Shown one piece after another: positions 9,273 to 44,732 of a DNA stretch of 45,685 nt. A program made the position numbers and the translations under genes. Source of the stretch: a virus; IMG/VR virus record IMGVR_UViG_3300030107_004365, positions 1 through 45,685 of that record; one strand, 5' to 3'. Position 1 is the first letter of the stretch, and each line of letters starts with the position of its first letter. The notes beneath the pieces are model-generated. The model worked only from the letters and a program-made list of their open reading frames with translations, was not told the DNA's origin and did not search any database.

Positions 9273-10391
9273 TTAGGAGAGGGTGTGCCTCGCCTGAGAT
9301 GCGGTGACTATACCCGCTTCGACGCAGGCGTCAACAAATTCTTGAGAAATTTTTTTCCGGTCTTCTTTTGGCACTTTGTCGCCCACCACTTTTGCCAGTT
9401 TTGCGAGGGGGAGGTTAGCTGCTTCCAGCACTTCGTCCTTATCCAAACCGAACTGTTCGGCAATATCCACCAGCCCTATGTTATCTTCCACCTTCTTCGT
9501 GGTCCCCATGTTGCGGAGGCGTAAAGTTGGAAACTCAATTCCGTTTTTAGCCATGTTGACTGCCCGCTTTTTCAGCCGGTCAGCCCAGTTAGATACCATC
9601 TTTGCGATGACCCATAGCTGCTCCACGACCTCTGGGTCGTCGGTTTCGTCGAGGTCAACGTCCGGCAGTTCAGTATTGATCTTCTTGGCTACAGAAACCA
9701 CTAACCCACCTAGCGCGGGGCAAGCATCTTCATGGCGACAGAACCGACAGTTTACTGTGGGAGTTAGGTCGGAGAGTTCTGGTGTGCCGTCGTTCCATTT
9801 AGGCCGGACTTCTTCTGCTTTTTTGATTATTTCCGACAGCTTCCTGACAAGTGCAGGAACATCATCCCGAGTGAACGTGTGAAACAGCGTCTCGTTTCTA
9901 ACGGGGACGTAGAATACAAATGTGATCTCATTCAATTCTGGGAACCTCTGAAAAGTTCCTACGGTGTAAGCCTGCGCCTGCCAGTTTTTTTCCGGTGGAT
10001 CAATCAAGGAGATTCCCGTTTTGTAATCTGCTTGAACTGCTGTGTCGTCATCGAAGACGGTAAGGCGGTCGCAAGTCCCCCAAGTTTCTGTCCCTTCCAG
10101 TTCAACGGTCAACTGGATCTCCTTGAAATCTTCGGTCTGTTCTCTCCCGCTCTGGGCGTAGTTGGCGAGGAACGCTCCTTCCTCCTCCATAATCTGCTCA
10201 TAGATAGAAATCTCTTCCTCGCTCTGAAGGTTGGAGGTGTCCTCGACTTCCAACGCTTCGTGTATCCTTGTGCCCTTTTCGGCAGCCGCGCTTGTTCCGC
10301 TTCTTCCGTGAAACCCAGCACAGCCTGCTATATACTTCAGAGCAGAAGGAGAAAATTCAGCGTGGTCTCTATCAGAGTGGCTGTTTGGCAT
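9273..10391 (-). CDS. PD-(D/E)XK exonuclease, RecB/Cas4-like (DUF2800-like)
   Basis: From ATG 10391 the protein has 372 residues. A longer frame would run into the resolvase gene, so this start is preferred. Motifs: S-P-S-A-L-K-Y with a nearby Cys, a GTRIHEALE motif (His in the first helix), GTCDRLTVF with the first acidic ligand, then QADYKTG giving Asp-x-Lys, and a Q-A-Q-A-Y motif. A late Cys cluster, NCRFCRHEDACPAL, matches the Cys set that binds an iron-sulphur cluster in Cas4/AddB-like nucleases; the early Cys would complete it. Likely an exonuclease for recombination or host-DNA breakdown. The final helical third (residues about 270-370) is family-typical. Confidence 0.75.
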   Translation of the reverse strand: MPNSHSDRDHAEFSPSALKYIAGCAGFHGRSGTSAAAEKGTRIHEALEVEDTSNLQSEEEISIYEQIMEEEGAFLANYAQSGREQTEDFKEIQLTVELEGTETWGTCDRLTVFDDDTAVQADYKTGISLIDPPEKNWQAQAYTVGTFQRFPELNEITFVFYVPVRNETLFHTFTRDDVPALVRKLSEIIKKAEEVRPKWNDGTPELSDLTPTVNCRFCRHEDACPALGGLVVSVAKKINTELPDVDLDETDDPEVVEQLWVIAKMVSNWADRLKKRAVNMAKNGIEFPTLRLRNMGTTKKVEDNIGLVDIAEQFGLDKDEVLEAANLPLAKLAKVVGDKVPKEDRKKISQEFVDACVEAGIVTASQARHTLS

Positions 10392-10399
10392 AGCGGTAA

Positions 10400-10912
10400 T
10401 TATACACCTTTCTGTCGGCCTGTCAAAATATATTGAGCAATTAAAAACGCATCGACCATTCCGTCGTGTGGAGTCCGGCACCGTTTGTTCTTTAGCCAGT
10501 TTTCTTCGGGGGCCATTCTCTCGGCAGCATTGAGGGCAGCCACTTTGGACATGCCCTTTGGTATGTTACCCAGTATTTTCTTTTGCCACTTATGGACGGA
10601 GACCCGAACCAGATCGTATCCTTTTACCTCGGCCATCCCGACGATTTTCCCAAAGCTAAGAGCCATCGAACGGACTGCTTGCGAACTCTTCGCGTGGGCC
10701 AGCGGTTCCTCTACTGCCAGCGTGAACGGCGTGTTCAGGTTGACCAGCCACTCGTTTATCTTGGCGGTGGCCACTTCCCGCTTCTTGCTTCGCTGCATCG
10801 TGGGCATTGCAATTTTATCAATGATGCCCCCGTCGAATGCGGAGATAGCGCAAAGCCCTCCGTCTAATCCGTTGTCTATCCCAACAATCACTGCTTCATA
10901 CCCTTCAGGCAC
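10400..10912 (-). CDS. RuvC-like Holliday junction resolvase
   Basis: The 170-residue protein carries an RNase H-fold resolvase signature: Asp13 in VGIDNGLDGG, Glu68 or Glu69 in AVEEPLAH, a K-x-AA-L segment near 123-131, and Asp150 and Asp154 in PHDGMVDAFLIAQY. This is the D-E-D-D set of RuvC. It would resolve branched DNA before packaging. The start overlaps the upstream small gene by 25 bases and the stop is nine bases before the exonuclease start. The length matches bacterial RuvC (about 170 residues). Confidence 0.85.
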   Translation of the reverse strand: MPEGYEAVIVGIDNGLDGGLCAISAFDGGIIDKIAMPTMQRSKKREVATAKINEWLVNLNTPFTLAVEEPLAHAKSSQAVRSMALSFGKIVGMAEVKGYDLVRVSVHKWQKKILGNIPKGMSKVAALNAAERMAPEENWLKNKRCRTPHDGMVDAFLIAQYILTGRQKGV

Positions 10913-29400: not shown

Positions 29401-32400
29401 GCGACCCAAGTTTGACACGTTCGACCCTAGCAAAAGCGATTTTGCCGGTAAGCTCGGCCTCACTTTCTTTTCCCCAAAAGTTCTCAAGGCTGAAGAGTTC
29501 ATCCAGATGCAAGAAACAGGGATCGACGGACACGCGGTCATACCCGTCGTAGCAAAAGACGAGATGAGTGTGTTTGACCCTCGTGTTAACTGGGAAGAAT
29601 TTATTGACGATATGGGCGTGGCTTTTGCCCGCGAGTATTTCGGTCCTAACGCCGAATACGCCACAGACGCGGAAGTTCTCAAAGATTACCGAGACACGAG
29701 ATCGTCATACGGCGACGTTGGAGAGGTGTTCAGTGAATCCATCCTCAATAAAATTAAGAGGGGCTACTGGCTATATTGGGAGAAGGCCGAACTGGTGGAC
29801 ATAATCATGTCTAAATACGACGGGATGCTCGTCACCGAAGTGGGGGGTGGAAACAGAATGCTCCCCGAATATGCGGGTGACGACGGCCTACCCAAAGACG
29901 AGCACATGAATCTCGCTATTCGTAACCCCAACCTCGTCAAGAGTGTGGCCCCGATAACCTTGGACTCGAAAGGGGAGATCGTTCCACTGAGCGACAGGTT
30001 CAACCCAGACAGCCCGAAATACATTCACTCCGGCGTCACAACTTTCGGAGCCGCCTCCGACCTCCCGTCCGAATTCAACTCGGAGGGCGTGGACTACAGC
30101 CAGTTCATCGAGGTCTTGGAAATGCCGTTCATCGAGAAGGGTGGATTCCAGAACGTGAAGGGGACGTTTATGAAGTTGTTCAAGGGAGAGACCGACCCGA
30201 CCGTGCAGCGTTACGTCAGGCAGCGGGACTCGTTCCTCAGAACTTCCGATAAGGTGGTCGATGAATACCACACCAAGTATAAGGCCGCGCTGAAAAAAGA
30301 CTTCCCGAACTCCGCAGACATTCCGTGGGACACCATCCAAGCGGCTACCGGAACCACGGACAACATCGACCCAGACCCAGACAACGTGTTGCTGGACGCA
30401 CGGAACAAGGTGAAGGATGCAGCTCACGCCCAGTATCAAAGCGACCTCGCCACCGAGTATGCGAAACACAAACAGGCAGAGGATGCCGAGCGGATTAAGA
30501 TAGACGCTGCCGAGTCAGACCCAGACAAGAGGCAGAAGCTATACTCCGCAGCAGCCAAAGCCCGTAAGTCAAAGCAGGAATCTTCTAAGGCCGCCCTTAA
30601 AGCCACCAAGGACGCCGCCTACGAAAAAGCCCAAAAGGATTACGAGGAGGACAAAGCCAAATCGTTCGACGCCAAGAAGGCCGACATGATCAAGGACCGG
30701 AACGAGGCGTTCGACAGTTTGCGTGAATCGGCCCCCAACTTGTTCCCCGTTCTCCTCGACCTCCGTCGGCTGACTGACGAACTGTCCGCGAAAGCCAAGA
30801 AGTTGTTCGGAAGGTTCTCCAAGAAAGACCTGAGCGTTAAGTTCGATAACAATATGGGACTTTACGTGACGCGCAGGTATCAGATGTTCTCCGACACAGA
30901 CTACGTTGAGCGCATTCTTACCTCGGAGGAGGACGGTGCGCGGGCTGTAAGGGACGCCGCCATCGACTTCATGCGCGACCAGTATATCAAGTTTGAATAC
31001 GACAGGTTCAGGAAAGATGGGAGAACGGATGCCGAAGCACAGGCAGCAGCCGAAGCTAAATACGACAGCCGCGAAGAAGGGAGCCAGTCGCTCGGATACA
31101 AGATGGTGCATGACTTCCTCAATTCATTTGATACTGAGACCGGAGCGGTAGACTTTGCGTCGGCGTTCGACTTGGCAGGTAAGCCCGCCTCCCTGCCCGC
31201 CCGAATGTCTGACTCACTCAAGGCGCTGACCAAAAACCTTGAAGGGAGGGCCGAGATCCCCAAGCCGCTCGCGGACTTGATGGGCGCGAACAACGTGCCG
31301 GAAGACAGCATCGACTCGCTCCTCTACACGATGGGGACGGTATCCAAGATTGCTGCCCACCAGTCATTCCTCAACGCAATGCGAGAGCAAGGGCAAGAGA
31401 GCGGTTGGCTTATGACCTCCACCCAACGGAACGAAGCGTTGAAGAAAGCCAAGACGAAAGAAGAGTTCGACCTGATCAACTCGATGAAGCCCGTCGTGTC
31501 CTCTGGTGCTGACAGTGGGTTGAACCCTCTGGCCGGAATGTATGCGACGAAAGAAGTCATCGAAGACATCCGCCCGATGTTCCAGCAGACGGTGCGGCAA
31601 GCCAACGACGCTTCTTCTCGGGCGATCCACAACGTAGTTACTTTCGCACAGAAAGCGACGGGAACCGCCATGGCTGCCAAGACATTGGGTTCAATCGGAT
31701 TCTACCTCCGCAACATGCTGAGTAACGTGCTGTTCTTCGGTCCAGCTCAGGGGTATTTCGGAGCGGCTAAATCTCTCTACTCTGGGAACCCACACAGCGG
31801 AACGGGTATGTCCGCCGCAATGGCTACGGGCCGCGCCTTCAGGGGCAACTCAGCCCAGACCAGTGCATACTTGCGGGAGCTTGAAGCTCTCGGTGTGTTC
31901 GGTGACGAAGTCCGCTCGGAGATTATGATTAAGCTGATGCGCGGAGAAGAGACTTTCGAGTCCCTTGAAGGGAAGCTAGCTGACCTCAACAAGAGAGCAG
32001 CCAAAGCTAAAGGGGCTAAGGCTCTCGCGTCTATCCATAACACTGCTGCCCGACTCGGGTCCGCAATGGATTCGTTCTACAAGATCGGATACTTTGAGCA
32101 CGAGTTGGCGGTCATTGAGAAGGCAGCCGAAGCAGAGAAGGGGATGCCACAAAAGGACCGGAAGTATTCTCTCATGTCCGACATGCAGAAGAAGCAGGCA
32201 GCCGCTGACATCGTCTCGGCCACCGCTCAGTCATACTCTAGGGCCATCCCACTCGTGAAGAAAATAAGCGGGTCCGGTGTTGGTCTCGTCATCGCACCGT
32301 TCATCCGGTTCACGGCGGAGGTTCCACGAATCGCGGTGAACACGTTCACGCTGGCGCGTAAGGAGATGAAGGATTCCAACCCAGTTATCAAGTCTCGCGG

Positions 32401-34166: not shown

Positions 34167-34369
34167 TTGTTAATGATGTCGGTCAGCCGGATAGCAATAT
34201 TGTATTGAGCTTTGGTGTCTAGGAGCGGGGAGGCGGGTAGGATCTTGTCGCCCATGATCGGATACAGTTTGCAGGTTTCAGGGTCCACCGGATCATCATC
34301 GAAATGCTCACCCTGAATCATCATCGGCATTCCGTTCGGGAAGAACTCTCGGACTATCTGTCTATACAC
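34163..34369 (-). CDS. Small protein of unknown function
   Basis: This 68-residue product starts at GTG 34369 inside the end of the helicase gene (eight-base overlap) and ends in an ATGA overlap with the next gene. It begins basic (MYRQIVREFFPNGMP), has an acidic middle (GEHFDDDPVDPETCKLYP) and ends in DIINK. No domain is recognised. Its translation probably depends on ribosomes finishing the helicase. Confidence 0.55.
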   Translation of the reverse strand: MYRQIVREFFPNGMPMMIQGEHFDDDPVDPETCKLYPIMGDKILPASPLLDTKAQYNIAIRLTDIINK

Positions 34370-35660
34370 CGTGCAGCTCTTTGAGGTTGGACAGACGGCG
34401 GTTGATCGACCGCATCACATGCTCCTCGATGGAGTCCGTTGCGACCAGCACCTGCTGGAGCGCGTCACTCTTACCACCGTTGCGGTGGATGCGACCGAGC
34501 ACCTGCTTGTAGATCTTGCAGTTGAAGGTGGGCGAGATCAGCGCCACGCGTGGGCGGTTGCCAATCGTGTCGTGCAGGGAGATCCCCGTCCCGCCAGCCG
34601 CAGCGTTGACTGCGATGCAGTGGGTCTGGTCTGCTTGGAACTCGTCGATCACACGCTGACGGTCGTCCTCTGATTGCCGCCCGTCGATCCGATCACACTT
34701 CAGCCGGAGCCGGAGGGCGTCGATGGTGTCACTGTAATTCACGAAAAGAACTACCGACTTACCCTGATCCATGAGATCCTCTGCCATCTCGGCAAGGTCT
34801 ACCACCTTGAATGCTTCGGCCAGTCGGCGAGCACGGGTGATGTTGGCGAGGACATGCTCGCTGTCGGTCACGGTTCCCTTCTCGATGAAGTCCTCCACGA
34901 TCTGAGGAGTAATGCCGAGGTCGTCGTAAGCCTTCTGGATCTTCTTGTTCTCGCGGAACTGGACAGGCGTGGTGAACACACGGTTGTCCTTGAAGGAGTT
35001 CGGGAAGTCATCCACCGTGAGACGGTGAGTAGAGGAACGATACATCTTCTCGCGGAGATGGGGGAGGAAGAACGGATCTTCCAGAACCCACGCACCCCAC
35101 TCGTTCTTCGCACACCCGAACATACGCATCCACGGCCACCACCTCTTGAGTCCATCCACCTTCTCGTCGCCGGAGTGGAGGCCGAGTGCCAGCCCGAGCG
35201 GGCGCATCTCAGTCGGGTCTTCGCAACTGGTGCCGGACATGCTGTGAACCGTGAACCCCTGCTTGACGAGAGATATGAACAGCGAAGCGTTCTGGGTGAA
35301 TGGTCCCTTGCACTTGTGAACCTCGTCCACGAACACAATGGTGTCGGGGTCGATGAGCCACTTGAATGCTTTCTTGCCCACCTTGGAAACGTGGGGAGTC
35401 TTACCCGTGCGAAGGGATTCAAGGTTAAGGATGAAGGTTGCAGTGACCCCCTCCTCCGCCAGTTCCTGCTTCCATGCAGGGATGACAGCCTTGGGGCAGA
35501 TGACTGCGATGGGCTTGCCGAGAGCGGCTGCCAACTTGACTGCGACCACAGTCTTGCCAGTCCCCATGTCGGACTGGTCGAGGGTGGCGAGGCCAGCGGA
35601 GAGCCGCTTGTAGAAGAAGTCGAACGCTTCTTGTTGCTTGGGGAAAAGGGTCTTGCTCAT
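34362..35660 (-). CDS. SF2 DEAD/SNF2-type helicase
   Basis: This 432-residue protein shows the full superfamily 2 set: a Q-motif-like PKQQEAF near residue 7, Walker A GTGKT at 33-37, a DEVH box at 112-115, motif III-like SMSGTS, and a C-terminal RecA-like domain with VVLFVNYSD, INAAAGGTGISLH-type motif V (VNAAAGGTGISL) and motif VI QVLGRIHRNGG. This is close to the SNF2/ERCC3-like phage helicases. It may act in replication, recombination or displacement of bound proteins. It has its own promoter (35691-35719) and a leader of about 25 bases, unlike the leaderless genes further right. Confidence 0.85.
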   Translation of the reverse strand: MSKTLFPKQQEAFDFFYKRLSAGLATLDQSDMGTGKTVVAVKLAAALGKPIAVICPKAVIPAWKQELAEEGVTATFILNLESLRTGKTPHVSKVGKKAFKWLIDPDTIVFVDEVHKCKGPFTQNASLFISLVKQGFTVHSMSGTSCEDPTEMRPLGLALGLHSGDEKVDGLKRWWPWMRMFGCAKNEWGAWVLEDPFFLPHLREKMYRSSTHRLTVDDFPNSFKDNRVFTTPVQFRENKKIQKAYDDLGITPQIVEDFIEKGTVTDSEHVLANITRARRLAEAFKVVDLAEMAEDLMDQGKSVVLFVNYSDTIDALRLRLKCDRIDGRQSEDDRQRVIDEFQADQTHCIAVNAAAGGTGISLHDTIGNRPRVALISPTFNCKIYKQVLGRIHRNGGKSDALQQVLVATDSIEEHVMRSINRRLSNLKELHGV

Positions 35661-35690
35661 TTAATAGGTAGTTAGTTTTAGGATGCGGGT

Positions 35691-35719
35691 AGTATAGCAG
35701 GTGAGTTGACTAGCGTCAA
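35691..35719 (-). promoter_or_regulatory. Sigma70-type promoter for the SF2 helicase operon
   Basis: Read leftward: -35 TTGACG (35714-35719), 17-base spacer, -10 TATACT (35691-35696). The start codon is 30 bases further on at 35660, so this is the one right-arm promoter of the set with a real leader. The leader is A/C-rich and has no Shine-Dalgarno. Confidence 0.75.
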
Positions 35720-36118: not shown

Positions 36119-36274
36119 TTACAGTTTCTTGAGCAAGTAGAGGATGGCATCCACCCTCGGCTTGAGTGCGGCTTCTTCTAAGGCGATGGCCTCCAGTTCC
36201 TGCTCGATGACGTAACGGGTGCAACCTTTACGCATCTTCGGAAACCATTTGCGGACATCAATTATTTTAGCCAC
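36119..36274 (-). CDS. 51-residue basic protein from a leaderless GTG start
   Basis: The product reads MAKIIDVRKWFPKMRKGCTR and continues as an acidic then basic helix ending in ILYLLKKL. I chose GTG 36274 because a -10 element TATAAT ends exactly six bases upstream, the same spacing as at seven other starts in this arm. Longer versions with ATG starts upstream would begin inside or before the promoter. No family is recognised. Confidence 0.6.
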   Translation of the reverse strand: MAKIIDVRKWFPKMRKGCTRYVIEQELEAIALEEAALKPRVDAILYLLKKL

Positions 36275-36280
36275 GCCGGA

Positions 36281-36309
36281 ATTATACACGGATCTAACAG
36301 ATTGTCCAA
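36281..36309 (-). promoter_or_regulatory. Leaderless sigma70-type promoter
   Basis: Read leftward: -35 TTGGAC (36304-36309), 17-base spacer, perfect -10 TATAAT (36281-36286), then six bases and the GTG at 36274. The -35 match is only three of six. This copy is outside the repeated cassettes but keeps their geometry. Confidence 0.65.
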
Positions 36310-36485
36310 TGGTTTTAATCATGTATTTGAAAGGTAAAATGTGGGGAGGGATTACTTTTGTTACCCCCAACTTTCGCCATCCAGATAAAGATCATTTAGG
36401 CTACTCGCGCTCTGCTCTCTCTGCTCAGTCGGTTGACCCCTGCTCAAGATACAGACACCTTTAGGCTCTTGGATTACACCTATGT
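36310..36485. other. Gap without a supported gene
   Basis: I see no convincing coding sequence here. A 26-codon frame on the minus strand has no ribosome site or promoter. No terminator or tRNA is visible. The segment is pyrimidine-rich in part (36408-36425). Confidence 0.5.
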
Positions 36486-36917
36486 TCAGTCACTCACGGT
36501 TGGGGAGCTACCCCAAAATATATGCGCCCCGTCGTTTTCTTCGTAGGCTTCTTCAAGCTCCTTCGCTTCCTTCTGGGCGGCCCACATCGCACTCCATGCG
36601 TCGGTCATGTGATACTTCATCACGGACCTGAGAGGTTGTGGGATGTCGGTGTTACCGGCATAACTATTTTTGTAGTTACCGTAGTCAATCTCGTCCACCT
36701 CTCTGGCAATCTGTGCGACCACCATTTCCTTGGGGAGAAAGACCCTGAACCTGTAGTCAGCTTTAGGGGTCTCAGTTACCCACGCCCCAGCCGCTTCTAT
36801 TTCTTCGCCGAACACCCGCTCCAAGTCTCCTTTAATCCGAGAACGGACGAGCAATTTTGTGGAGTCGTTGCGATCCTGCACCACCGAGAAGAACCCTTTG
36901 TTAGTGAAGACCCACAT
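36486..36917 (-). CDS. Conserved phage/bacterial protein of 'MWVFTNKGFFSVV' family
   Basis: From ATG 36917 the product has 143 residues. It starts MWVFTNKGFFSVVQDRND, continues LLVRSRIKGDLERVF, then ADYRFRVFLPKEMVVAQIAR and EIDYGNYKNS, and ends with a TDAWSAMWAAQKEAKELEEA helix. The first and third blocks match a widespread family of small conserved proteins with no function known to me. Longer upstream reading overlaps the alpha-CTD-like gene and is not conserved in style. The start is one base from the preceding stop region, so the gene probably depends on translational coupling. Confidence 0.7.
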   Translation of the reverse strand: MWVFTNKGFFSVVQDRNDSTKLLVRSRIKGDLERVFGEEIEAAGAWVTETPKADYRFRVFLPKEMVVAQIAREVDEIDYGNYKNSYAGNTDIPQPLRSVMKYHMTDAWSAMWAAQKEAKELEEAYEENDGAHIFWGSSPTVSD

Positions 36918-36918
36918 T

Positions 36919-37785
36919 TTACTGGCCCCCCTTTCGCTGGATCTTGTTACGCTGGCGACTTCTCCTCTGGGAAGCACGGATTCTCTCTTTGTTCTTTCGA
37001 TACCAGCCCTTGGAGTAGGCACGGGCCTGCTTCTTGTTAAGCTCTTTGATGTCGAGCGCCTCCTCAAGTTCTTTCTTGCTGGAGAAAGACGAGATGCCGA
37101 GTTCGTCGGCAGCTTCCCATGTGACAGCCCCGTCGTAAAAAGCGGCGAGCAAGGACTGCAAGGCAGCAGGTCCAAAGTTAGGGAGGGTGAGGAGATACTC
37201 AGGGGTCTGATCAGTAACCTGCCCCACGTTCACGAGCCCCTCCCCGAGCAGCGCCTTCACCGCGTTGTGGGGGATACCGAGCGACTCGATGGAGTCGAAA
37301 GAAGAAACCGCTCGGACATCGCGTGGGATTTCCTCGGGCTCCGTGTTCGCACCTAGAATAGTAGCGAGGCTGGGAACCTCCGGCGCTTCTGCTTCTTCTG
37401 CGGCTGCGGCTGCGGCTGCGGCTATTGCCTCTTCGGCTGCCGGTGTTAGCCGTGGAATGGGGGGAGACGAAGTGTAAGCGGGCTTGGCGAACAACTCTGA
37501 TTCGTGGTCGGTCTCGAAATATTCGCGGTCGGTCTCGAAATTCTCAATGATCTCCTCAAGGTGAGCCTTCTTCGCCTTGAACCCCATGCCTGTAACATGT
37601 TTCAGATGGCACTCACGGAGCCCATCGAGAAGCCTGTCGGCTGCCTCGCGCTCGTTGAGCAGCATGTTGGTCAGGTCCGCGATTCTCTCGTGGGACTTCA
37701 GTTGTTCGTCGGTCTGGCTCAGGAGCAAATCGAGGCCAGCTTGAGTGTCCTTGAGGAAGGACCGGATAGATGTAATGTTTGCCAT
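36919..37785 (-). CDS. Protein with RNA polymerase alpha-CTD-like HhH domain
   Basis: This 288-residue protein has a helical N-terminus (about residues 1-100), an Ala/Glu-rich linker (115-137), and at about 163-217 a segment that tracks the RNA polymerase alpha subunit C-terminal domain: DSIESLGIPHNAVKALLGEG, then VNVGQVTDQTP, then YLLTLPNFGPAALQSLL. The E. coli domain has the same order: D-L-E-L-x-x-R-x-x-N-x-L-K, G-D-L-V-Q-R-T, and L-L-K-T-P-N-L-G-K-K-S-L. A basic C-terminal tail (ASQRRSRQRNKIQRKGG) could bind DNA. It may bind A/T-rich upstream elements or activators, steering host polymerase. It is transcribed from its own leaderless promoter (37792-37820). Confidence 0.65.
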   Translation of the reverse strand: MANITSIRSFLKDTQAGLDLLLSQTDEQLKSHERIADLTNMLLNEREAADRLLDGLRECHLKHVTGMGFKAKKAHLEEIIENFETDREYFETDHESELFAKPAYTSSPPIPRLTPAAEEAIAAAAAAAAEEAEAPEVPSLATILGANTEPEEIPRDVRAVSSFDSIESLGIPHNAVKALLGEGLVNVGQVTDQTPEYLLTLPNFGPAALQSLLAAFYDGAVTWEAADELGISSFSSKKELEEALDIKELNKKQARAYSKGWYRKNKERIRASQRRSRQRNKIQRKGGQ

Positions 37786-37791
37786 GGTGAT

Positions 37792-37820
37792 ACTATAACA
37801 GAGGGGTAGGATTTAGTCAA
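37792..37820 (-). promoter_or_regulatory. Leaderless sigma70-type promoter
   Basis: Read leftward: -35 TTGACT (37815-37820), 17-base spacer, -10 TATAGT (37792-37797), then ATCACC and ATG 37785. It belongs to the first cassette copy of about 94 bases; the second copy is at 38289-38382. Confidence 0.8.
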
Positions 37821-37862
37821 TAACTTTCTGCAAATAAATTAAGCGAGTGTTAACTGGAAACT

Positions 37863-37949
37863 TTATTTTTCAGTTAAGCTCTCCCGCTTCCGCCGGAGAA
37901 CGAGGAGCAGGACGAGGGGGACAAGGATCAGGAAGAGGGTTGCAGTCAT
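37863..37949 (-). CDS. 28-residue single-pass membrane micropeptide
   Basis: The frame starts at ATG 37949, overlapping the previous stop (ATGA), and ends in TAA at 37863-37865. The product is MTATLFLILVPLVLLLVLRR plus KRESLTEK, that is one strong transmembrane helix with a basic cytoplasmic flank. Coupling by overlap and the clean positive-inside pattern make translation plausible. It is far too short for family recognition. The end of the frame lies within the repeated promoter cassette. Confidence 0.5.
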   Translation of the reverse strand: MTATLFLILVPLVLLLVLRRKRESLTEK

Positions 37950-38098
37950 CAGGATAGGTTGATGATTGGTTTGCGACATGCAGTCTTCCGCACATGTTTC
38001 TTCTGATCTCGGTAACGGGTGGTCGGAGGGGGCATGGCGTGACGAGCCATGTTCCTCTTCTCAAGGGAGGTCGTTGGGAGTTTGTGCTTGGTCTTCAT
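37949..38098 (-). CDS. 49-residue basic protein
   Basis: From ATG 38098 the product is MKTKHKLPTTSLEKRNMARH and continues with AMPPPTTRYRDQKKHVRKTA to a short end. It is rich in Lys, Arg, His and Thr, so nucleic acid or anionic partner binding is possible. It overlaps the upstream gene by 38 bases; a longer N-terminus is unlikely. No family is recognised. Confidence 0.5.
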   Translation of the reverse strand: MKTKHKLPTTSLEKRNMARHAMPPPTTRYRDQKKHVRKTACRKPIINLS

Positions 38099-38288
38099 GG
38101 ATCTCTCTTTCCAGTTCGTCGATCTCTTGGGCAGTCTGATGCGAGTCGAAGTCGGCGTAGTCTCGGGGTCCGTCTTCAATCGACGATTTAATTTCTCGCA
38201 GGACTCGGGAAACTACCTCGGGTCTCGGGAGACCCTTGGGGCGGGCGGCCTCGAAATAGTCGTGGATGCTTTGGTTGATGTGTGGCAT
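38061..38288 (-). CDS. Small acidic helical protein from a leaderless ATG
   Basis: The 75-residue product reads MPHINQSIHDYFEAARPKGL, continues through VVSRVLREIKSSIEDGPRDY and ends with an acidic helix (AQEIDELEREIHEDQAQ). It is mainly helical and could be a dimeric regulator or an anti-host protein, but no family is recognised. It is the first gene behind the second cassette copy, with the -10 ending six bases before its ATG. Confidence 0.6.
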   Translation of the reverse strand: MPHINQSIHDYFEAARPKGLPRPEVVSRVLREIKSSIEDGPRDYADFDSHQTAQEIDELEREIHEDQAQTPNDLP

Positions 38289-38294
38289 GGTGAT

Positions 38295-38323
38295 ACTATA
38301 ACAGAGTGGTAGGATTTAGTCAA
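38295..38323 (-). promoter_or_regulatory. Leaderless sigma70-type promoter
   Basis: Read leftward: -35 TTGACT (38318-38323), 17-base spacer, -10 TATAGT (38295-38300), then ATCACC and ATG 38288. It is nearly identical to the promoter at 37792-37820. Confidence 0.8.
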
Positions 38324-38376
38324 CAACTTTCTGCAAATAAATTAAGCGGGTGTTAACTGGATATTTTATTTTTGAG

Positions 38377-38430
38377 TTAAGCGTAACCCCCGTCGTTGAT
38401 GCGGTCGTCAGCCTGTCCTGTTAACTGCAC
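38377..38430 (-). CDS. Possible 17-residue peptide
   Basis: A GTG at 38430, inside the last codons of the preceding gene, opens a frame coding MQLTGQADDRINDGGYA, ending at TAA 38377-38379. There is no other evidence; the overlap would allow coupling but the frame may be chance. Confidence 0.2.
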   Translation of the reverse strand: MQLTGQADDRINDGGYA

Positions 38431-38597
38431 CGTTCGATGTGGGCGAGCTTGACTTTTTCCTGCTGGGTCAGAGGTCGTGGACGAAGAGCCTTAGCGCGTC
38501 GCTCGATCTCGGCAAGATATTCGGGGGTGAGGCTGGTGCGCTTGGTCACAGGTGCGGGGCGCACTACGATGTCATCGTTTCTATTTAGATTGTCCAT
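38421..38597 (-). CDS. 58-residue unknown protein
   Basis: A frame from ATG 38597, overlapping the upstream stop (TAATG), encodes MDNLNRNDDIVVRPAPVTKR, then TSLTPEYLAEIERRAKALRP and RPLTQQEKVKLAHIERCS. The helices IERRAKAL and QEKVKLAHI and the basic content suggest nucleic acid contact. It is below the length at which gene callers usually report. Translational coupling supports it. Confidence 0.5.
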   Translation of the reverse strand: MDNLNRNDDIVVRPAPVTKRTSLTPEYLAEIERRAKALRPRPLTQQEKVKLAHIERCS

Positions 38598-38848
38598 TAT
38601 TTTACAAGGGGCAGGGTTTCAGGGTTGATAACTTCAGTGACTGCCTCGGCAAACGCCTCGCGCTTCCTCTCGGACTGCTCGGCCTCGTGAGCGGCAACGT
38701 AGTCGCGGCAGGACGCAAGCAGGGCGGTCTCGGTCTCGGCAACGTGGACGACCATGTCCGCGCCGTAGGGGATGATGTAGCGGAAGCCCATCTTGCTGGC
38801 GGCAAGGACGAACAGTCGCAGCCACATCGTTTGGATTAGATCTCTCAT
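38597..38848 (-). CDS. Unknown 83-residue protein
   Basis: The product starts with a hydrophobic helix (MRDLIQTMWLRLFVLAASKM) and strands (FRYIIPYGADMVVHVAE) and continues as a charged helix (AAHEAEQSERKREAFAEAV). No family is recognised. It follows the class II leader (38849-38878) after the stop of the VWA gene, so it is expressed in that transcript. Confidence 0.55.
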   Translation of the reverse strand: MRDLIQTMWLRLFVLAASKMGFRYIIPYGADMVVHVAETETALLASCRDYVAAHEAEQSERKREAFAEAVTEVINPETLPLVK

Positions 38849-38878
38849 GGTAACTAGTTTTCTATTTTCAGGTTAAGC
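38849..38878 (-). repeat. Class II leader cassette, divergent copy
   Basis: The stretch between the VWA stop and ATG 38848 reads leftward as GCTTAACCTGAAAATAGAAA then ACTAGTTACC. It shares the TTAACC start and GTTACC end with the copies at 43091, 43371 and 44025. Confidence 0.55.
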
Positions 38879-40402
38879 TATGTTGATGGCGACTCGCTCG
38901 CCGAACGGGTAGCAGGTGACACCGATGTTCTCGGGGGCGTGGTAGCCAAAGCACAGCCACAGGATGGGGCAGTGTGGCTCTCTCATCTCCTCCCAGTCGT
39001 ATTTCCACGTGTAACCGTCGGTCAGGTAGATGATGCCGTCCGCGTTCGGTGCGTTCTCCTCGGCCCAGTCGAGGGCTGGCTTGAGCAGAGTGCCGCCGCC
39101 ACCTTCAAGGGTCTCGGGGAGTTGGCCCCCAGCGTCCACCTCGTGGGTCGTGTGGACCTGTCTGTCGCAGGGGACAACGTGGGTGAGGCGGGGCTGGAAC
39201 TGGTCAAGCACCTCCTGCACCTTGTCGAGCATCGGACCCATCCGGTTGACGTTGGAGCCGGAGGTGTCCACGAGGAACACAAGCTCGCCAGCTACCTTGG
39301 AGCCACGGGCGCGGCGGACCACGCCAGTCCGGTCAAAGGTGCGTGTGCAGAACGGACGGTCCCAGCCTTCCTCGGAGCGAGCCTGAAACCAGTTGGCAAG
39401 ATGCTCGGTCCAAGGGACACGGTTCGTGGTGCGCTTCAGGTCGCTCGATGTGAACGTCCCTGCCCCGCCGGAGGTGAGTCCCTTGGTCTCGTTCACCCGC
39501 TCCTCGTAAGAAGCCTGCTGTGCAGCCTCACGGTTCGCGGCGTCGAACTCCTCAAGGGTCTCGCCGTCCTCAAGCTCAGGCTCGCAGAAGTCATCGTGAC
39601 CACCACCGAACTCTCCGGTGGTTGCCCCACCCCCCGAGCCATCAGGGGATGGGGACTCACCATGCTCGTCCGACTCGGCACCACCCTTGCCGGACTCACC
39701 TTCATGCTCACCATTAGAATCGTTCTCGTCACCGGAGTCACCGCCGTCCTGATCACCAGCCTCGTCGCCGGAGTCAGGGTTCGGGGTGCCGGAGCCATTG
39801 CCAGCCTCGTCACCTTCCTCGTCGGACTTCTCGGAGCCACCGCTGTTCACGTTCACAGGAGGAACGGGGTGGGTCTTGAGGATCTTCTCGATCCCTTGCT
39901 CGGAGGACAGGTCTTCCTTGTCGGTATCGTATAAATCTTTTTCGTCGATAAGAATATCTCCGAGGGGAGTCATCACATCGAACGGCTCAAGTCCGGCGTC
40001 GATCATGGCCTGACGGGCCTCGGTGTTGAGATCGCGGAGCCACGCGTTGATGATCAGATCACTCATCACGTTGGCGGCGCACCATACCTTGCCCTTCCAG
40101 AAGATCTGAGCGCCGACCTCACGGTAGCGGCGGAACCTCTCGGGGTGATTGAGAACGATGTGACCATTCTCGTGACCGACCACAAACCCAGCCTCGGCGG
40201 GGGTGAGGGAGTTCAGGTTCTCCTCGTTGTAGTAGCCGTATCTACCGTCGGTCATGCCATACTTGGTCTCGGTAGTCCGCTTCATGCCTCGGAGGCAGGG
40301 GCGGTAGAGGTATCCGACATAGTTGCGGAGGTTGCGGACCCCGACCTCGATGGGGGTGGTCCCCCTTGGGTGAACGTCGATGAAGTTGGAAGTGGCAGGC
40401 AT
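38873..40402 (-). CDS. VWA-domain protein with N-terminal HExxH metallopeptidase
   Basis: This 509-residue protein has three parts. Residues about 60-130 hold a metallopeptidase-like helix with HENGH at 77-81, plus a possible third ligand in VMSDLIINAW. An acidic low-complexity linker (186-262) follows. The C-terminal VWA domain has a MIDAS motif DTSGS at 379-383 (FLVDTSGSN). This layout fits the DUF2201/VWA-like family often encoded with MoxR-type ATPases. The MoxR-like ATPase and a helical protein lie just upstream, so the three likely form one metal-dependent remodelling complex. It is transcribed from its own leaderless promoter (40409-40437). Confidence 0.75.
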   Translation of the reverse strand: MPATSNFIDVHPRGTTPIEVGVRNLRNYVGYLYRPCLRGMKRTTETKYGMTDGRYGYYNEENLNSLTPAEAGFVVGHENGHIVLNHPERFRRYREVGAQIFWKGKVWCAANVMSDLIINAWLRDLNTEARQAMIDAGLEPFDVMTPLGDILIDEKDLYDTDKEDLSSEQGIEKILKTHPVPPVNVNSGGSEKSDEEGDEAGNGSGTPNPDSGDEAGDQDGGDSGDENDSNGEHEGESGKGGAESDEHGESPSPDGSGGGATTGEFGGGHDDFCEPELEDGETLEEFDAANREAAQQASYEERVNETKGLTSGGAGTFTSSDLKRTTNRVPWTEHLANWFQARSEEGWDRPFCTRTFDRTGVVRRARGSKVAGELVFLVDTSGSNVNRMGPMLDKVQEVLDQFQPRLTHVVPCDRQVHTTHEVDAGGQLPETLEGGGGTLLKPALDWAEENAPNADGIIYLTDGYTWKYDWEEMREPHCPILWLCFGYHAPENIGVTCYPFGERVAINIA

Positions 40403-40408
40403 GGTGAT

Positions 40409-40437
40409 ACTATAACAGAGTGTTCGTGATTAGTCAA
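40409..40437 (-). promoter_or_regulatory. Leaderless sigma70-type promoter
   Basis: Read leftward: -35 TTGACT (40432-40437), 17-base spacer, -10 TATAGT (40409-40414), then ATCACC and ATG 40402. Same -10 to start geometry as its siblings; it belongs to the ATCACC subgroup. Confidence 0.8.
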
Positions 40438-40454
40438 TATGTTTCTGATCTTTT

Positions 40455-41390
40455 TTAGACAAGCCCACTCGCGGCGAGCTTGTCCTCAAGGGCGGCAGTC
40501 ACCTTGGTGAACTCCTCGGCCTTGTCCTTCCTCTCGGAGGGGTCGAGACCGACAACGTCGAGTCCCTCGACGAGACCGGCAGCAGTGGCGGCAGCCGTCT
40601 CCAGTTCGGGGAGGTCGAGCAGGTTCTTGCCCCGCACCTCGGCGACCAGTTTCTCCACGGTCTTGAACTTGTCGGCGCGGAGCCGCTTGTTCTTCCCGCC
40701 CTCCTTGGAGCCAGCGGCGGCCAACCTCTTGACGCACTCACCGAGAGCGTCGAGCAGGTTCTCGACAGGCTTAGCGTGGGCCGAGAGAACCTTGGCCTTG
40801 GTAGACTCCTCGGCCTTGATCTTGATCCGCTGGACCGTCTCGGCCAGCACGGTATCGAAGATTTTAGAATCCGAGATAGTGGTTTCGATGTCGAACCCGA
40901 GTTCGCTCCGGCGGAGGAACCGATCCACGGTGGGATACTCCACGCCCTTCCCGAACACGAGCATCTCCTCCTTGCCCCGCTCCTTGAGAGCCTCCCAGTT
41001 CCGGCGGATCTCGGCGTTGCACTTGTCGATGCTGACCTTCGCAGCGTTGAAGATCTCCTCGAAACGGTCGAAGTCCTGCACTCGGCAGAGGTAGGTGTTC
41101 GGTCGGCCAGTCTTCGCTAGCCCACGGTAGCCCCGCTTAGGGTCACCAGCCACGATGTCCTTCTTGAACTGATTGACGAAGGACCGCGCCGTTCCGATAG
41201 CAGTGTCGGTGGCGGGGAGGAAGCGGCTGTTCGCCGACAGGAGTTTCTTGAGTCCGGCCCGATCCTCGGGATCGACCTGATCGAGCAGGACTTTCTTTGC
41301 GTTGGGGTTGGTCCCCGTGATCACGTAGGACGGGGTGGCGAGGTGGATCTCGATGAGAGAGCGGAGGGAGGAAGATTTGATTTCGAGCAT
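40455..41390 (-). CDS. Helical partner protein, DUF3150-like
   Basis: The 311-residue protein is almost entirely helical. Features: MLEIKSSSLRSLIEIHLATP, a mid helix around RSFVNQFKKDIVAG, a helix with KCNAEIRRNWEALKERGKEE, and late helices (KIKAEESTKAKVLSAHAKPV). Position between a MoxR-like ATPase and a VWA/metallopeptidase, plus size and helical nature, matches the DUF3150-like protein found in CobS/CobT-like three-gene modules of phages and integrative elements. The family match is by context and composition rather than by motif. It has its own leaderless promoter (41397-41425). Confidence 0.55.
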   Translation of the reverse strand: MLEIKSSSLRSLIEIHLATPSYVITGTNPNAKKVLLDQVDPEDRAGLKKLLSANSRFLPATDTAIGTARSFVNQFKKDIVAGDPKRGYRGLAKTGRPNTYLCRVQDFDRFEEIFNAAKVSIDKCNAEIRRNWEALKERGKEEMLVFGKGVEYPTVDRFLRRSELGFDIETTISDSKIFDTVLAETVQRIKIKAEESTKAKVLSAHAKPVENLLDALGECVKRLAAAGSKEGGKNKRLRADKFKTVEKLVAEVRGKNLLDLPELETAAATAAGLVEGLDVVGLDPSERKDKAEEFTKVTAALEDKLAASGLV

Positions 41391-41396
41391 GGGAGT

Positions 41397-41425
41397 AGTA
41401 TATCAGCTAGGTGTTAAGTTGTCAA
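41397..41425 (-). promoter_or_regulatory. Leaderless sigma70-type promoter
   Basis: Read leftward: perfect -35 TTGACA (41420-41425), 17-base spacer, -10 TATACT (41397-41402), then ACTCCC and ATG 41390. An A-rich stretch lies just upstream (AAAAATAAATTAAGAAAACA), where UP elements bind polymerase alpha subunits. Confidence 0.85.
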
Positions 41426-41449
41426 ATGTTTTCTTAATTTATTTTTGGG

Positions 41450-42643
41450 TCAGGCAACGAGACCTTTCAGGCGAGCAGCAGATGGGTGGGCGAAGATGGG
41501 GTTGTCCCCGTCACCCTCGGGCTGAGTGTGGGCGGCGAGGGTGGAGAACACCCACGCTCCCAACTCGGGGCTGCATCCTTCAAAGAGGTCGAAGGCCCAG
41601 TCCCACTGGCCGGAAGAGATCGCGGCAGGGTAGTCCTTGCCCCCCTCGTTCAGGGCGATGCGAGCGGCGGCAAAAGCCACGGCGGGGTGACGGTGCTTGG
41701 GAACCTCGGCCATGGTCTTACGACCCTCGCGGACCTCGGTCACCTCCGGCCCCACCTCGATCACGGTCTTGATGAGGTTGACCATGTCCTCGACTACAGG
41801 AGTCGGGATGCGGGATGCAGCGTGCAGGGCGAAGAAGTCTACGTCCTCGATGGAGTCCCAGTCGGGGAACATCCTGAGGACGCCTTCCCATGTCCGGCCA
41901 GAGCATACGGCTCCGCCAGTGTAGCGGGACGGCTTGTCCTCGCCCTTGACCTTGCCCGTCCACGGGTTGAGACCCTCGCCCTGAGTCTCCACGCCTTGGC
42001 GGAAGAAGTTCAGGTAGGCCCAGACAGGGCTGCCCTTGAAGGTGGGGGCAGTGTAATCGAGGAAGTCCTCGACCGAAAGCTGGAAGCGATACTGGCTGCA
42101 CCGTGCAGCGTCAGGCTGGGAGAGTTCCCGCCCGTTCTCGACATCGTCGAGCCGACCGTTGAACGTGATCATGAACCTCACGTTAGGACCGACCTTGTGG
42201 ACCCCGATGTAGCGGTCCTGCCCGTCCGGTGCGTAGAGAGCGGATCGAAGCGCCTGCTTCAGTGGGCCGGGTGCCGCCTGATATTCATCGACGACACAAA
42301 GGACATGAGCATCCCCGACGGTCGCCTCGACAGGAGCCTCCTCTGGGATGAGGGAAACGGAGCGGTAGATTCCATCGCCCTCGTGGTGAGGAACTTGGAT
42401 GCCACGGGCAGTCTCCTCGTGGACTCCGGCGCAGTTGAACACAACGATCCCGCCTTTGTGGGCCTCGCTGATGGGGCGGAACACGGGTTCGATGCCGAGT
42501 TCCTCGGCGACCTCCTTGGCAGAGGTGGTCTTGCCTCCTCCAGAGGGGCCGCCGACTGCGAGGACCGAGCCGGAGCGTTCGGCCATTCGGGTTGCGGGGC
42601 GGACGCCGGAGTAGGAGATGATGGGGAGAGAAGTTTCAAGCAT
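41450..42643 (-). CDS. MoxR-like AAA+ ATPase
   Basis: This 397-residue protein has Walker A GPSGGGKT (32-39), a Walker B strand VLCVVDEY with Asp119-Glu120, and a sensor-like stretch VRFMITFNGRLDDV. A helical lid with SQPDAARCSQYRF follows. The N-terminal start MLETSLPIISYSGV is shared in the first three residues with the next gene, which is part of the cassette. It most resembles MoxR/CobS-type AAA+ proteins, which with VWA partners remodel or assemble other proteins. In this phage the partners are the genes at 40455 and 38873. It has a leaderless promoter (42650-42678). Confidence 0.75.
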   Translation of the reverse strand: MLETSLPIISYSGVRPATRMAERSGSVLAVGGPSGGGKTTSAKEVAEELGIEPVFRPISEAHKGGIVVFNCAGVHEETARGIQVPHHEGDGIYRSVSLIPEEAPVEATVGDAHVLCVVDEYQAAPGPLKQALRSALYAPDGQDRYIGVHKVGPNVRFMITFNGRLDDVENGRELSQPDAARCSQYRFQLSVEDFLDYTAPTFKGSPVWAYLNFFRQGVETQGEGLNPWTGKVKGEDKPSRYTGGAVCSGRTWEGVLRMFPDWDSIEDVDFFALHAASRIPTPVVEDMVNLIKTVIEVGPEVTEVREGRKTMAEVPKHRHPAVAFAAARIALNEGGKDYPAAISSGQWDWAFDLFEGCSPELGAWVFSTLAAHTQPEGDGDNPIFAHPSAARLKGLVA

Positions 42644-42649
42644 GGGAGT

Positions 42650-42678
42650 AGTATATCAGCTAGGTGTTAAGTTGTCAA
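42650..42678 (-). promoter_or_regulatory. Leaderless sigma70-type promoter
   Basis: Read leftward: perfect -35 TTGACA (42673-42678), 17-base spacer, -10 TATACT (42650-42655), then ACTCCC and ATG 42643. The sequence from 42641 to about 42704 is almost identical to 41388-41451. Confidence 0.85.
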
Positions 42679-42691
42679 ATGTTTTCTTGAA

Positions 42692-43090
42692 TTATTTTTG
42701 GGTGGAAAGAAACTCTCTGATCTCAATAAACAGATCATCCGAGATGTCCATATGCTCTTGCAGGTCATCGTGGATACTAGCACAGGCGATCCTTGCCATC
42801 TCCATGATTTCAGTTTTGTATTTCATTACCTTAGTGTTTCTGAACTTGAAAGGCACGGCACGTTGGACTGCGTCGAGCAGGCCCCTGCTGTAGAGGCAAG
42901 TGAGACGGGTGGTGGTCTCCTCAAGGTCAGGCACGAGACCGTTCAGGTAAGCGTCCTCGGCGTTGAGTTCATCGACGATGCGGTTGAGACTGTCGATAAT
43001 GGCGACGAGATCCTCGGTCTTGATCTCAAGATATGGGGTGGGGTCGTGGGAATCAGGCATGAATGAAGCGGGGCAAGTGATTTTGGGCAT
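42692..43090 (-). CDS. Unknown helical protein
   Basis: From ATG 43090 the protein has 132 residues; a longer frame would read through the class II leader. It is helical, with EDLVAIIDSLNRIVDELNAE, a TTTRLTCLYSRGLLDAVQRA helix, and an end with DISDDLFIEIREFL. No family is recognised. It is preceded by the class II leader cassette at 43091-43124, which begins at the stop of the gene upstream. Confidence 0.55.
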   Translation of the reverse strand: MPKITCPASFMPDSHDPTPYLEIKTEDLVAIIDSLNRIVDELNAEDAYLNGLVPDLEETTTRLTCLYSRGLLDAVQRAVPFKFRNTKVMKYKTEIMEMARIACASIHDDLQEHMDISDDLFIEIREFLSTQK

Positions 43091-43124
43091 GATGGTAACT
43101 GGGTAAATGTTTCTGGGGTTAAGC
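43091..43124 (-). repeat. Class II leader cassette, copy 1
   Basis: Read leftward it starts GCTTAACC, containing the upstream stop TAA, and ends GTTACCATC directly before ATG 43090. The 34 bases match 43371-43404 and 44025-44058 at most positions. No Shine-Dalgarno and no -10 are present. Confidence 0.7.
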
Positions 43125-43370
43125 GGCGAGACCGAGCTGGGATTTGATGTCGCGGTGGGCGGCGGTGATGTAATCCGAGATGGCCTGTAGAGGGTAGTCC
43201 TCGGGGGTGCCAAGGAACTTGCGGACGAGAGGCTCGGCGGGCTGAGTGGACACTTGGATTCCCTTCGCCTCGGAGCGGAGGGCGGAAGCCCATACGGTGA
43301 GGGTGACGAGGAAGACTTCTTTAGGCTCGCCGTGGAAGTCGTGGACGCGGACAGTGAATGTTGGTGACAT
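43119..43370 (-). CDS. Unknown 83-residue protein
   Basis: From ATG 43370 the product starts MSPTFTVRVHDFHGEPKEVF, with strand-rich sequence (FLVTLTVWASALRSEAKG) and a helical end (QAISDYITAAHRDIKSQLG). No family is recognised. Its stop lies within the class II leader of the next gene and its start is directly after another copy of that leader. Confidence 0.55.
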   Translation of the reverse strand: MSPTFTVRVHDFHGEPKEVFLVTLTVWASALRSEAKGIQVSTQPAEPLVRKFLGTPEDYPLQAISDYITAAHRDIKSQLGLAA

Positions 43371-43404
43371 GGTGGTAAGTGGGTAAATAATTCTGGGGTT
43401 AAGC
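43371..43404 (-). repeat. Class II leader cassette, copy 2
   Basis: Reads leftward from GCTTAACCCCAG to ACTTACCACC directly before ATG 43370. The centre (AGAATTATTTACCCA) is the same as in copy 3. Confidence 0.75.
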
Positions 43405-43602
43405 GGAGGGTTCAAGGGTGACCGAGAGGTGGGGCTTTCCCCATCCCCAGCAGGCGGTGGAAACCCAGCGGGATGCCTGCTTCCTTGCCTCCTTGTTGGA
43501 GGTGGCCTCGACGGTGAAGAGGGACCGCTCGTCCCCGTCCACGATCACACGATAGGTTCGCATGGGGCGGGGCAGGGCGGACTGGGTAGTGGTAGCAGGC
43601 AT
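43399..43602 (-). CDS. Unknown 67-residue protein from a leaderless ATG
   Basis: The product begins MPATTTQSALPRPMRTYRVI, then VDGDERSLFTVEATSNKEAR and KQASRWVSTACWGWGKPHLS. A beta-hairpin and helix with a Trp/Cys-rich end are likely. No family is recognised. Its start has the -10 six bases upstream, and a second possible ATG at codon 14 (MRTYRVI) would give a leadered start instead, but the geometry favours the first. Confidence 0.6.
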   Translation of the reverse strand: MPATTTQSALPRPMRTYRVIVDGDERSLFTVEATSNKEARKQASRWVSTACWGWGKPHLSVTLEPSA

Positions 43603-43608
43603 GGTAAG

Positions 43609-43637
43609 ACTATAGCAGATGGGCGTTAAGTTGTCAA
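43609..43637 (-). promoter_or_regulatory. Leaderless sigma70-type promoter
   Basis: Read leftward: perfect -35 TTGACA (43632-43637), 17-base spacer, -10 TATAGT (43609-43614), then CTTACC and ATG 43602. A-rich sequence lies upstream (AATAAATTGAGAAAACAT). Confidence 0.85.
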
Positions 43638-43650
43638 ATGTTTTCTCAAT

Positions 43651-44016
43651 TTATTTTTGGGCCTTGAGGTGGTCGATGGCATCAAGAAGATGGTGGTTCT
43701 CGTTGTGGTCCGCCAGCATAATGGCAGTGAACAACTCGACCCCGTCACGGAGGACTCTCTCCCCCTCGACGATAGCCTTGGCAGCGTCCTGCACCTCGCG
43801 GACAACCTCTCGACGGGCGGGGATGTCCTCGACGAGAGCGACCTCACCGAGGGCCGCATCGGCGGCGGCGTCGATTGCCTCGGGGTGGGGTGACCCGAGT
43901 TCCCTCACGATGAGGGGGACTCGTCCAGAGTCGATGAGCTTGGCGAGGGACAGTCCCGTCCAGTTGCGGTGGCGGAGGACGGCGAAGGCGGATGGGGAGA
44001 GGTGGTTTACAGACAT
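43651..44016 (-). CDS. Unknown 121-residue helical protein
   Basis: The product starts MSVNHLSPSAFAVLRHRNWT and continues with helices (SLAKLIDSGRVPLIVRELG, AIDAAADAALGEVALVEDIP). The end has VELFTAIMLADHNENHHLLD. Several His and Asp residues cluster at the end, but there is no defined metal motif. No family is recognised. It follows a class II leader (44025-44058). Confidence 0.5.
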   Translation of the reverse strand: MSVNHLSPSAFAVLRHRNWTGLSLAKLIDSGRVPLIVRELGSPHPEAIDAAADAALGEVALVEDIPARREVVREVQDAAKAIVEGERVLRDGVELFTAIMLADHNENHHLLDAIDHLKAQK

Positions 44017-44024
44017 GATCTTGA

Positions 44025-44058
44025 GATGGTAACTGGGTAAATAATTCTGGGGTTAAGC
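44025..44058 (-). repeat. Class II leader cassette, copy 3
   Basis: Reads leftward from GCTTAACCCCAG through AGAATTATTTACCCA to GTTACCATC; eight more bases then precede ATG 44016. It begins at the stop of the DUF6011-like gene. Confidence 0.75.
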
Positions 44059-44697
44059 GGCGGCGGTCTTGTCGCCCCATGGCAGGCCGAAGTTCTCGGC
44101 GCACACTGGGCCGAACCCAGCGGCAAGGGACTCGGGGGTGGTCAGCTCCCGCCGACAGAAGCAGCAGTTGCCGGAGGCATGGCCGTGTTCCGCCGCCACC
44201 TTGGCAGGGTCAGCGGCGAAGTCCTTCACCAACTGGACGACCTCGGGGGTCGCCTGCCGAGCGGGGTGGAAGGCACCGTCCTTGATCACTCCGAACCAGC
44301 CTGCCCCGAACTCGGGAGCGGCGACGGTGATGGACCCGTGGTGCTTGGACCGAGGCCCAGCCTTCGCCACCTTCAGGGTGACGGGGCCACGATTCAGGAT
44401 AAACTTCGGAAACTTCAGCTTGGCCGAAGCGGTGGCGAAGATAGCCTCGATGGCGGAGGCATCCACCGCAACGGGCGCGGCCTTGGCCTCGGGAGTGGCG
44501 ACTCGGTGGAGCCAGAACTTGCGAGCGGCGGACAGGTTGCCCCACTTGGTGAAGGCGTTGGCGAGATCCTTGGCAAAGGAACTGGCATCGGGGTCAGCGA
44601 AGACGGCAGCGGCGGCCTCGGCGTCGGTTGAAAACTTGGAAGTGAATCCGGCGTGGGTCTTGCCGGAGGCGGAGGTGATGGAATCGAACTTGAGCAT
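44053..44697 (-). CDS. DUF6011-like zinc-binding protein
   Basis: This 214-residue protein ends in a Cys cluster characteristic of DUF6011: CCFCRREL (Cys178-Cys181), then GFGPVCAENFGLPWG (Cys199). The N-terminal part is Ala-rich and helical (FSTDAEAAAAVFADPDASSF), and a central strand-rich portion has FPKFILNRGPVTLKVAKAGP and a GSITVAAPEFGAGWFGVI segment. The His-x-H (AAEHGHASGN) before the Cys cluster may complete the metal site. The function is not known; the family is frequent in phages. It has its own leaderless promoter (44704-44732). Confidence 0.7.
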   Translation of the reverse strand: MLKFDSITSASGKTHAGFTSKFSTDAEAAAAVFADPDASSFAKDLANAFTKWGNLSAARKFWLHRVATPEAKAAPVAVDASAIEAIFATASAKLKFPKFILNRGPVTLKVAKAGPRSKHHGSITVAAPEFGAGWFGVIKDGAFHPARQATPEVVQLVKDFAADPAKVAAEHGHASGNCCFCRRELTTPESLAAGFGPVCAENFGLPWGDKTAAA

Positions 44698-44703
44698 GAC
44701 GGT

Positions 44704-44732
44704 AGTATAGCTGGTGGTTAGATAATTGTCAA
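44704..44732 (-). promoter_or_regulatory. Leaderless sigma70-type promoter
   Basis: Read leftward: perfect -35 TTGACA (44727-44732), 17-base spacer, -10 TATACT (44704-44709), then ACCGTC and ATG 44697. A-rich sequence (AATAATTCAAGAAAACAT) lies upstream. Confidence 0.85.

Follow-up and report, generated by a model that had tools for sequence, protein, structure and literature searches.

Bacterial translation of messenger RNAs (mRNAs) without a 5' leader has been studied mostly in Actinobacteria, in Deinococcus and for a few Escherichia coli phage genes. Here we analyse the IMG/VR record IMGVR_UViG_3300030107_004365 (the window, 45,685 bases in full), from an uncultured, probably marine phage, in the right arm of which near-consensus promoter sequences stand directly on the start codons of seven genes. 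As with lambda cI, whose mRNA from pRM begins at its AUG in a bacterium (E. coli) that otherwise relies on Shine-Dalgarno (SD) pairing, these phage mRNAs are predicted to begin at AUG; lambda offers one such gene, not many. The middle and late promoters of Thermus phage P23-45 were reportedly found leaderless by Berdygulova et al. in 2011, and the window phage would share with P23-45 both many leaderless promoters in one phage and a host phylum rich in leaderless genes. The PeSL elements of T4-type phages are mobile early-promoter cassettes that lie between genes and carry a stem-loop. The window phage likewise has short repeated promoter cassettes between its genes (families D1-D3); unlike PeSL, these have no terminator-like stem-loop and include the start codon in the repeated unit.

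Leaderless SigA promoters have also been predicted in the Cluster O mycobacteriophages of the Corndog group (PL1, PR2 and PL2; PMC4351075), whose right region, like that of the window phage, is transcribed leftward from several promoters. They differ in that only about three are leaderless, in an unrelated phage with an actinobacterial host, and that duplicated promoter-ATG cassettes are not described. The middle and late promoters of P23-45 belong to the extended -10 class (PMC7403470), whereas the window sites are not -35-less and also have a near-consensus -35. In cellular genomes, Zheng et al. 2011 found leaderless genes to be common in Actinobacteria and Deinococcus-Thermus, in a text that does not mention Verrucomicrobia (PMC3160421). 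The sites described here agree with their TA-led leaderless genes in lacking an SD and in placing the first T of TANNNT 12 bases ahead of the start codon, although the TA-led genes were described for cells and not for a phage. The first-pass annotation of the window had called an arm of leaderless promoters unusual. The kind was in fact already known, from the Cluster O precedent and from the bacterial groups above, and the same signal occurs genome-wide in the probable host group; what is new is to find it in this phage lineage, in so dense and exact an array of promoters, and as a pattern across Verrucomicrobiota genomes.

Promoter sequences placed on start codons

Seven minus-strand sites read TTGAC(A/T)-17-TATA(C/G)T-6-ATG. 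Those with the first base of the -35 at 37820, 38323 and 40437 are TTGACT-17-TATAGT-6-ATG, and those at 41425, 42678, 43637 and 44732 are TTGACA-17-TATA(C/G)T-6-ATG. Within the arm the strict pattern has seven minus-strand matches, all on the coding strand, and no plus-strand match. The hexamers match the consensus at 10-11 of 12 bases with spacers inside the 16-18 bp range, as in promoters of a host sigma-70/SigA factor. In each of the seven genes, no possible start lies between the ATG and the preceding in-frame stop, and codons 2 and 4 of the ATPase gene vary synonymously between relatives (CTT/CTC, ACT/ACG), which marks this frame as coding from the outset. Eight sites with a 17-base spacer and a -10 ending six bases before the start had originally been proposed, each numbered by the base that ends its -10 hexamer. 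All eight are present and seven are exact, while the eighth, at 36281, has a 16-base spacer with its best -35 (TGGACA) and is ambiguous.

Leaderless transcription from at least seven genes of the window phage is well supported as a prediction from these sequences, and we consider it very likely that strong promoters for the host primary sigma factor have been fused to start codons, yielding leader-free mRNAs in a host that is probably verrucomicrobial. The sigma factor would recognise a TTGACW -35, a 17-bp spacer, usually an extended -10 TG, and TATAnT; RNA polymerase would start at the A of the ATG, the seventh base past the -10 with C at -1, to give an mRNA without a 5' leader; and ribosomes would then recognise the 5'-terminal AUG, which would suit a phage in which an SD is missing from nearly every gene. 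The promoters would head units of one to three genes, perhaps early in infection. Their spread over the arm would owe something to the duplication of two cassettes, with selection holding the promoter-to-ATG distance, and the host would probably be one of the Verrucomicrobiota and itself rich in leaderless genes.

A position-by-position comparison of 23 sites from three phages found C at -1, A at +1, T at -35 and -34, A at -32 and C at -31 to be invariant, together with T at -12, A at -11 and T at -7 (23 of 23), the TA-led arrangement. GAAA at -43 to -40 is nearly invariant, T at -15 and G at -14 are kept in 21-22 of the 23 sites, and TTGAC stands at the -35 of 21, together with TG at -15/-14. 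Comparing the spacing in related phages, a check that the first-pass annotation had proposed, bore the layout out. Orthologous promoters of the two relatives that closely share the right arm (G001 and G002) have the same length from -35 to ATG in every set, without insertion or deletion, and their differences fall less on the hexamers (-35, 7%; -10, 12%) than on the spacer (24%). Over 13 contigs, the distance from -10 to start codon peaks at 6 bases (44 cases) and 7 bases (17 cases) versus ~5 for every other distance, with 1 and 4 cases, respectively, in a reversed control; most of the 7-base cases come from a single promoter, with a 16-base spacer, ahead of the exonuclease gene (10426). The promoter layout is, by this comparison of sequences, evidently under selection.

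Translation signals, transcription units and alternative readings

SD complementarity at p<0.05 was found for 3 of 44 genes, none of them headed by a promoter, and none of the seven exact sites shows anti-SD pairing above background. The first 45 nucleotides of the promoter-headed mRNAs are G-poor and weakly structured (-3.6 versus -11.3 kcal/mol inside genes, p 1e-13); bacterial genes, though, commonly have less structure around the start. The transcription start that had been placed at the A of the ATG is upheld for the seven sites by their canonical spacing, the invariant C and A at -1 and +1, the conserved geometry, the near absence of SD and the unstructured 5' ends. The accompanying proposal, an independent promoter and separate regulation for each gene, did not hold. 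The promoters head units of one to three genes and do not serve every gene; a search for terminator-like hairpins found none at the cassettes or between units (5 in the arm, 9.8 expected). Because promoterless genes lie between headed ones, and no such hairpins separate the units, separate per-gene regulation is not indicated, and joint control is suggested instead, as the promoters are near-copies of two cassettes.

This repetition bears on how the array arose. The right-arm sites fall into two cassette sequence families and are partly duplicated, as in the pair formed by 37775-37879 and the 38286-38323 region, which shares a 105-nucleotide repeat at 92% identity; duplication evidently contributed to the array. 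The identical geometry could then be mostly copying, with one or two promoter-plus-ATG cassettes recombined along the arm and the distance inherited rather than selected for leaderless translation. The two sequence classes, the long repeat and the two sites with the same 38 nucleotides speak for it, as does the recombination-borne spread of PeSL-like promoters in T4-type phages. We nevertheless regard copying as unlikely to be the main cause: spacers have diverged while distances stayed fixed, which argues that selection kept the promoter-to-ATG distance, no orthologue set holds an indel, and the distance of 6-7 bases recurs where the spacer is unrelated, both at the left-arm exonuclease gene and in phages further removed.

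A different possibility is that the promoters function while the start lies a few bases upstream or downstream, giving leaders of 1-6 nucleotides or mixed ends with ordinary SD-independent initiation. A is frequent at -3 (17 of 23 sites) and -6 (19 of 23), and genes without a promoter of their own are mostly SD-less as well. SD-less translation of leadered mRNAs also seems to exist in this phage, as the helicase gene combines the same promoter type with a 24-nucleotide SD-less leader. Yet only the A at +1 with C at -1 is invariant, at the usual distance from the -10, which makes a shifted start distinctly improbable. That the hexamers arose by chance, or as a by-product of coding or base composition, is partly true of 36281, where a longer possible frame would read the hexamers as codons, and of the site ahead of the first window gene in relatives. 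For the seven it is refuted by their intergenic position, their conservation and the lack of a single match in 1000 dinucleotide shuffles of the arm versus seven observed, so that we give this explanation a negligible chance overall.

Phage lineage and probable host

No near relative of the window phage was found among 50,697 GenBank phages, where searches by DNA, terminase protein and ATPase protein gave no match and those by polymerase and helicase gave distant matches only. A search of IMG/VR by polymerase gene found about 40 relatives. When IMG/VR was searched with the ATPase, von Willebrand factor A (VWA), 311-residue and DUF6011 proteins, the right arms returned were only the G001 and G002 contigs and one short partial match.

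For the host we lean towards a verrucomicrobial bacterium. Class labels were taken from the titles of three metagenome-assembled genomes (MAGs), labelled Opitutae, Blastopirellula and Altibacter, which belong to different phyla and each carry a close terminase match (74-76% identity in the Opitutae MAG). Distant terminase relatives occur in 4 further genomes among 384 of the Opitutae-MAG class, two of which carry them on contigs 314 and 489 kb long; in the Blastopirellula-MAG (398 genomes) and Altibacter-MAG (395) classes no genome other than the query MAG has one, so that terminase-bearing genomes number 5/384 versus 1/398 and 1/395. The pattern TTGAC-18-TANNNT-6-ATG has 499 matches versus 56 in a reversed control (~9x) in 122 genomes of the Opitutae-MAG class, and 107 versus 59 in the same genomes when the start codon is shifted by nine bases. 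The excess is weaker in 99 genomes of the Blastopirellula-MAG class, Planctomycetia (249 versus 108). A Bacteroidota host was considered and rejected, as the pattern is unenriched in 99 Altibacter-MAG-class genomes, Bacteroidia (165 versus 260), which disfavours the Altibacter label. These genome counts point to Verrucomicrobiota as a leaderless-rich group and suggest that leaderless genes are widespread there. Akkermansia has been listed as SD-scarce (PMC10783764).

Several observations weigh against the reading of primary-sigma promoters fused to start codons in a verrucomicrobial host. The start sites are predicted from sequence; as partial duplicates, the seven sites are not seven independent events; and in the more distant relatives G010 and G011 the geometry persists, but with weaker hexamers. 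Host assignment is indirect: the closer terminase relatives (88% and 78% identity) lie in the MAGs labelled Blastopirellula and Altibacter, and short phage contigs are easily mis-binned. The Opitutae MAG itself has 2 pattern matches versus 1 in the control.

The layout looks adapted to a host able to translate leaderless mRNAs, and does not look like the oddity of a single phage. More tentatively, and with somewhat less than even confidence, we picture a lineage of marine Verrucomicrobiota phages that has nearly given up SD initiation and in which cassettes of promoter plus start codon act as interchangeable units of expression; in this it would mirror a widespread and little-described leaderless habit of its hosts. 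Leaderless initiation could be tested cleanly, and in a natural system, in a phage lineage that sets so many near-consensus promoters right at its start codons, and the cassettes would serve as ready-made expression tools for Verrucomicrobiota, for which genetic tools are few. For annotation, promoter position can call start codons in such phages.

Genes of the arm and further sites

The promoter at 44695..44732 (minus strand, as for all features of the arm; TTGACA-17-TATACT-ACCGTC-ATG), identical in both hexamers to its G001 orthologue, heads the gene of a 214-residue DUF6011 protein (44053..44697), which is followed by 43651-44016 without its own promoter. The site at 43600..43637 (TTGACA-17-TATAGT-CTTACC-ATG) heads the gene of a 67-residue protein (43399..43602), with the promoterless 43119-43370 and 42692-43090 next. 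The promoter at 42641..42678 (TTGACA-17-TATACT-ACTCCC-ATG), whose geometry is kept in the G001 and G002 orthologues, precedes an AAA-type ATPase of 397 residues (41450..42643; AAA_22, E 0.0031, below the family cut-off), which its VWA neighbour would make MoxR-like. The same 38-nucleotide sequence recurs at 41388..41425 ahead of a 311-residue protein of unknown function (40455..41390; 82-95% identity in two relatives). TTGACT-17-TATAGT-ATCACC-ATG occurs at 40400..40437, before a 509-residue metallopeptidase-like and VWA-like protein (38873..40402; DUF2201_N and DUF2201 matches), at 38286..38323, before 38061-38288 (75 residues), and at 37783..37820, before 36919-37785 (288 residues), with 36486-36917 next and without a promoter of its own. 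An intergenic repeat of the TTAACCCCAGAATTATTTACCCAGTTACCATG type stands before genes that have neither promoter nor SD (43091-43128, 43371-43408, 44025-44062 and 38349-38386); it may be a promoter cassette now stripped of -35 and -10, or else a signal for coupling. Searches for transfer RNAs and against Rfam found nothing.

The ambiguous site at 36272..36309 (minus strand) reads TGGACA-16-TATAAT-6-GTG, or has TTGGAC as its -35 with a 17-base spacer. It precedes a 51-residue frame (36119-36274) that lies within a longer possible open reading frame from an in-frame ATG 48 bases upstream of the GTG (36322). Eight phages share its nucleotides, even at synonymous positions, yet three of them have no upstream in-frame start codon, which tells against plain coding sequence; a promoter with a GTG start may be present. 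The sequence kept in the eight, ATTGGACA..CTGTTAGA...RTGTATAAT, exceeds what a promoter needs and perhaps reflects an operator or regulatory overlap.

Two sites lie outside the eight first proposed, both on the minus strand. At 35682..35719, a promoter of the same type (TTGACG-17-TATACT-ACCCGC) has ATC at the predicted +1 ahead of the helicase gene (34362-35660); with its 24-nucleotide leader, it makes the leaderless layout a rule with exceptions. At 10389..10426 in the left arm, TTGACA-16-TATAAT-TACCGCT-ATG precedes a gene with an exonuclease family match (start at 10391) and is kept, with variable spacer sequence, in most of 12 relatives. This conservation may be partly coding, because the upstream gene (10400-10912) runs with its 3' end into the promoter and has its stop codon in the -10. 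In more distant relatives (G009, G013, G014 and L026), a further candidate site of leaderless type, TTGAAA-16-TATACT-6-GTG, stands before a frame of 427-453 residues.

A third of the window (17465-33439, plus strand) encodes a multi-domain protein of 5324 residues. A tape measure like that of P23-45, with RNA polymerase, was considered and set aside, as Pfam and PHROGs searches found no such domain. The protein has a DUF7178 match, and its HELIH motif (HELIHAYVTG) suggests that it contains a metallopeptidase; it presumably resembles the polyvalent proteins of phages.

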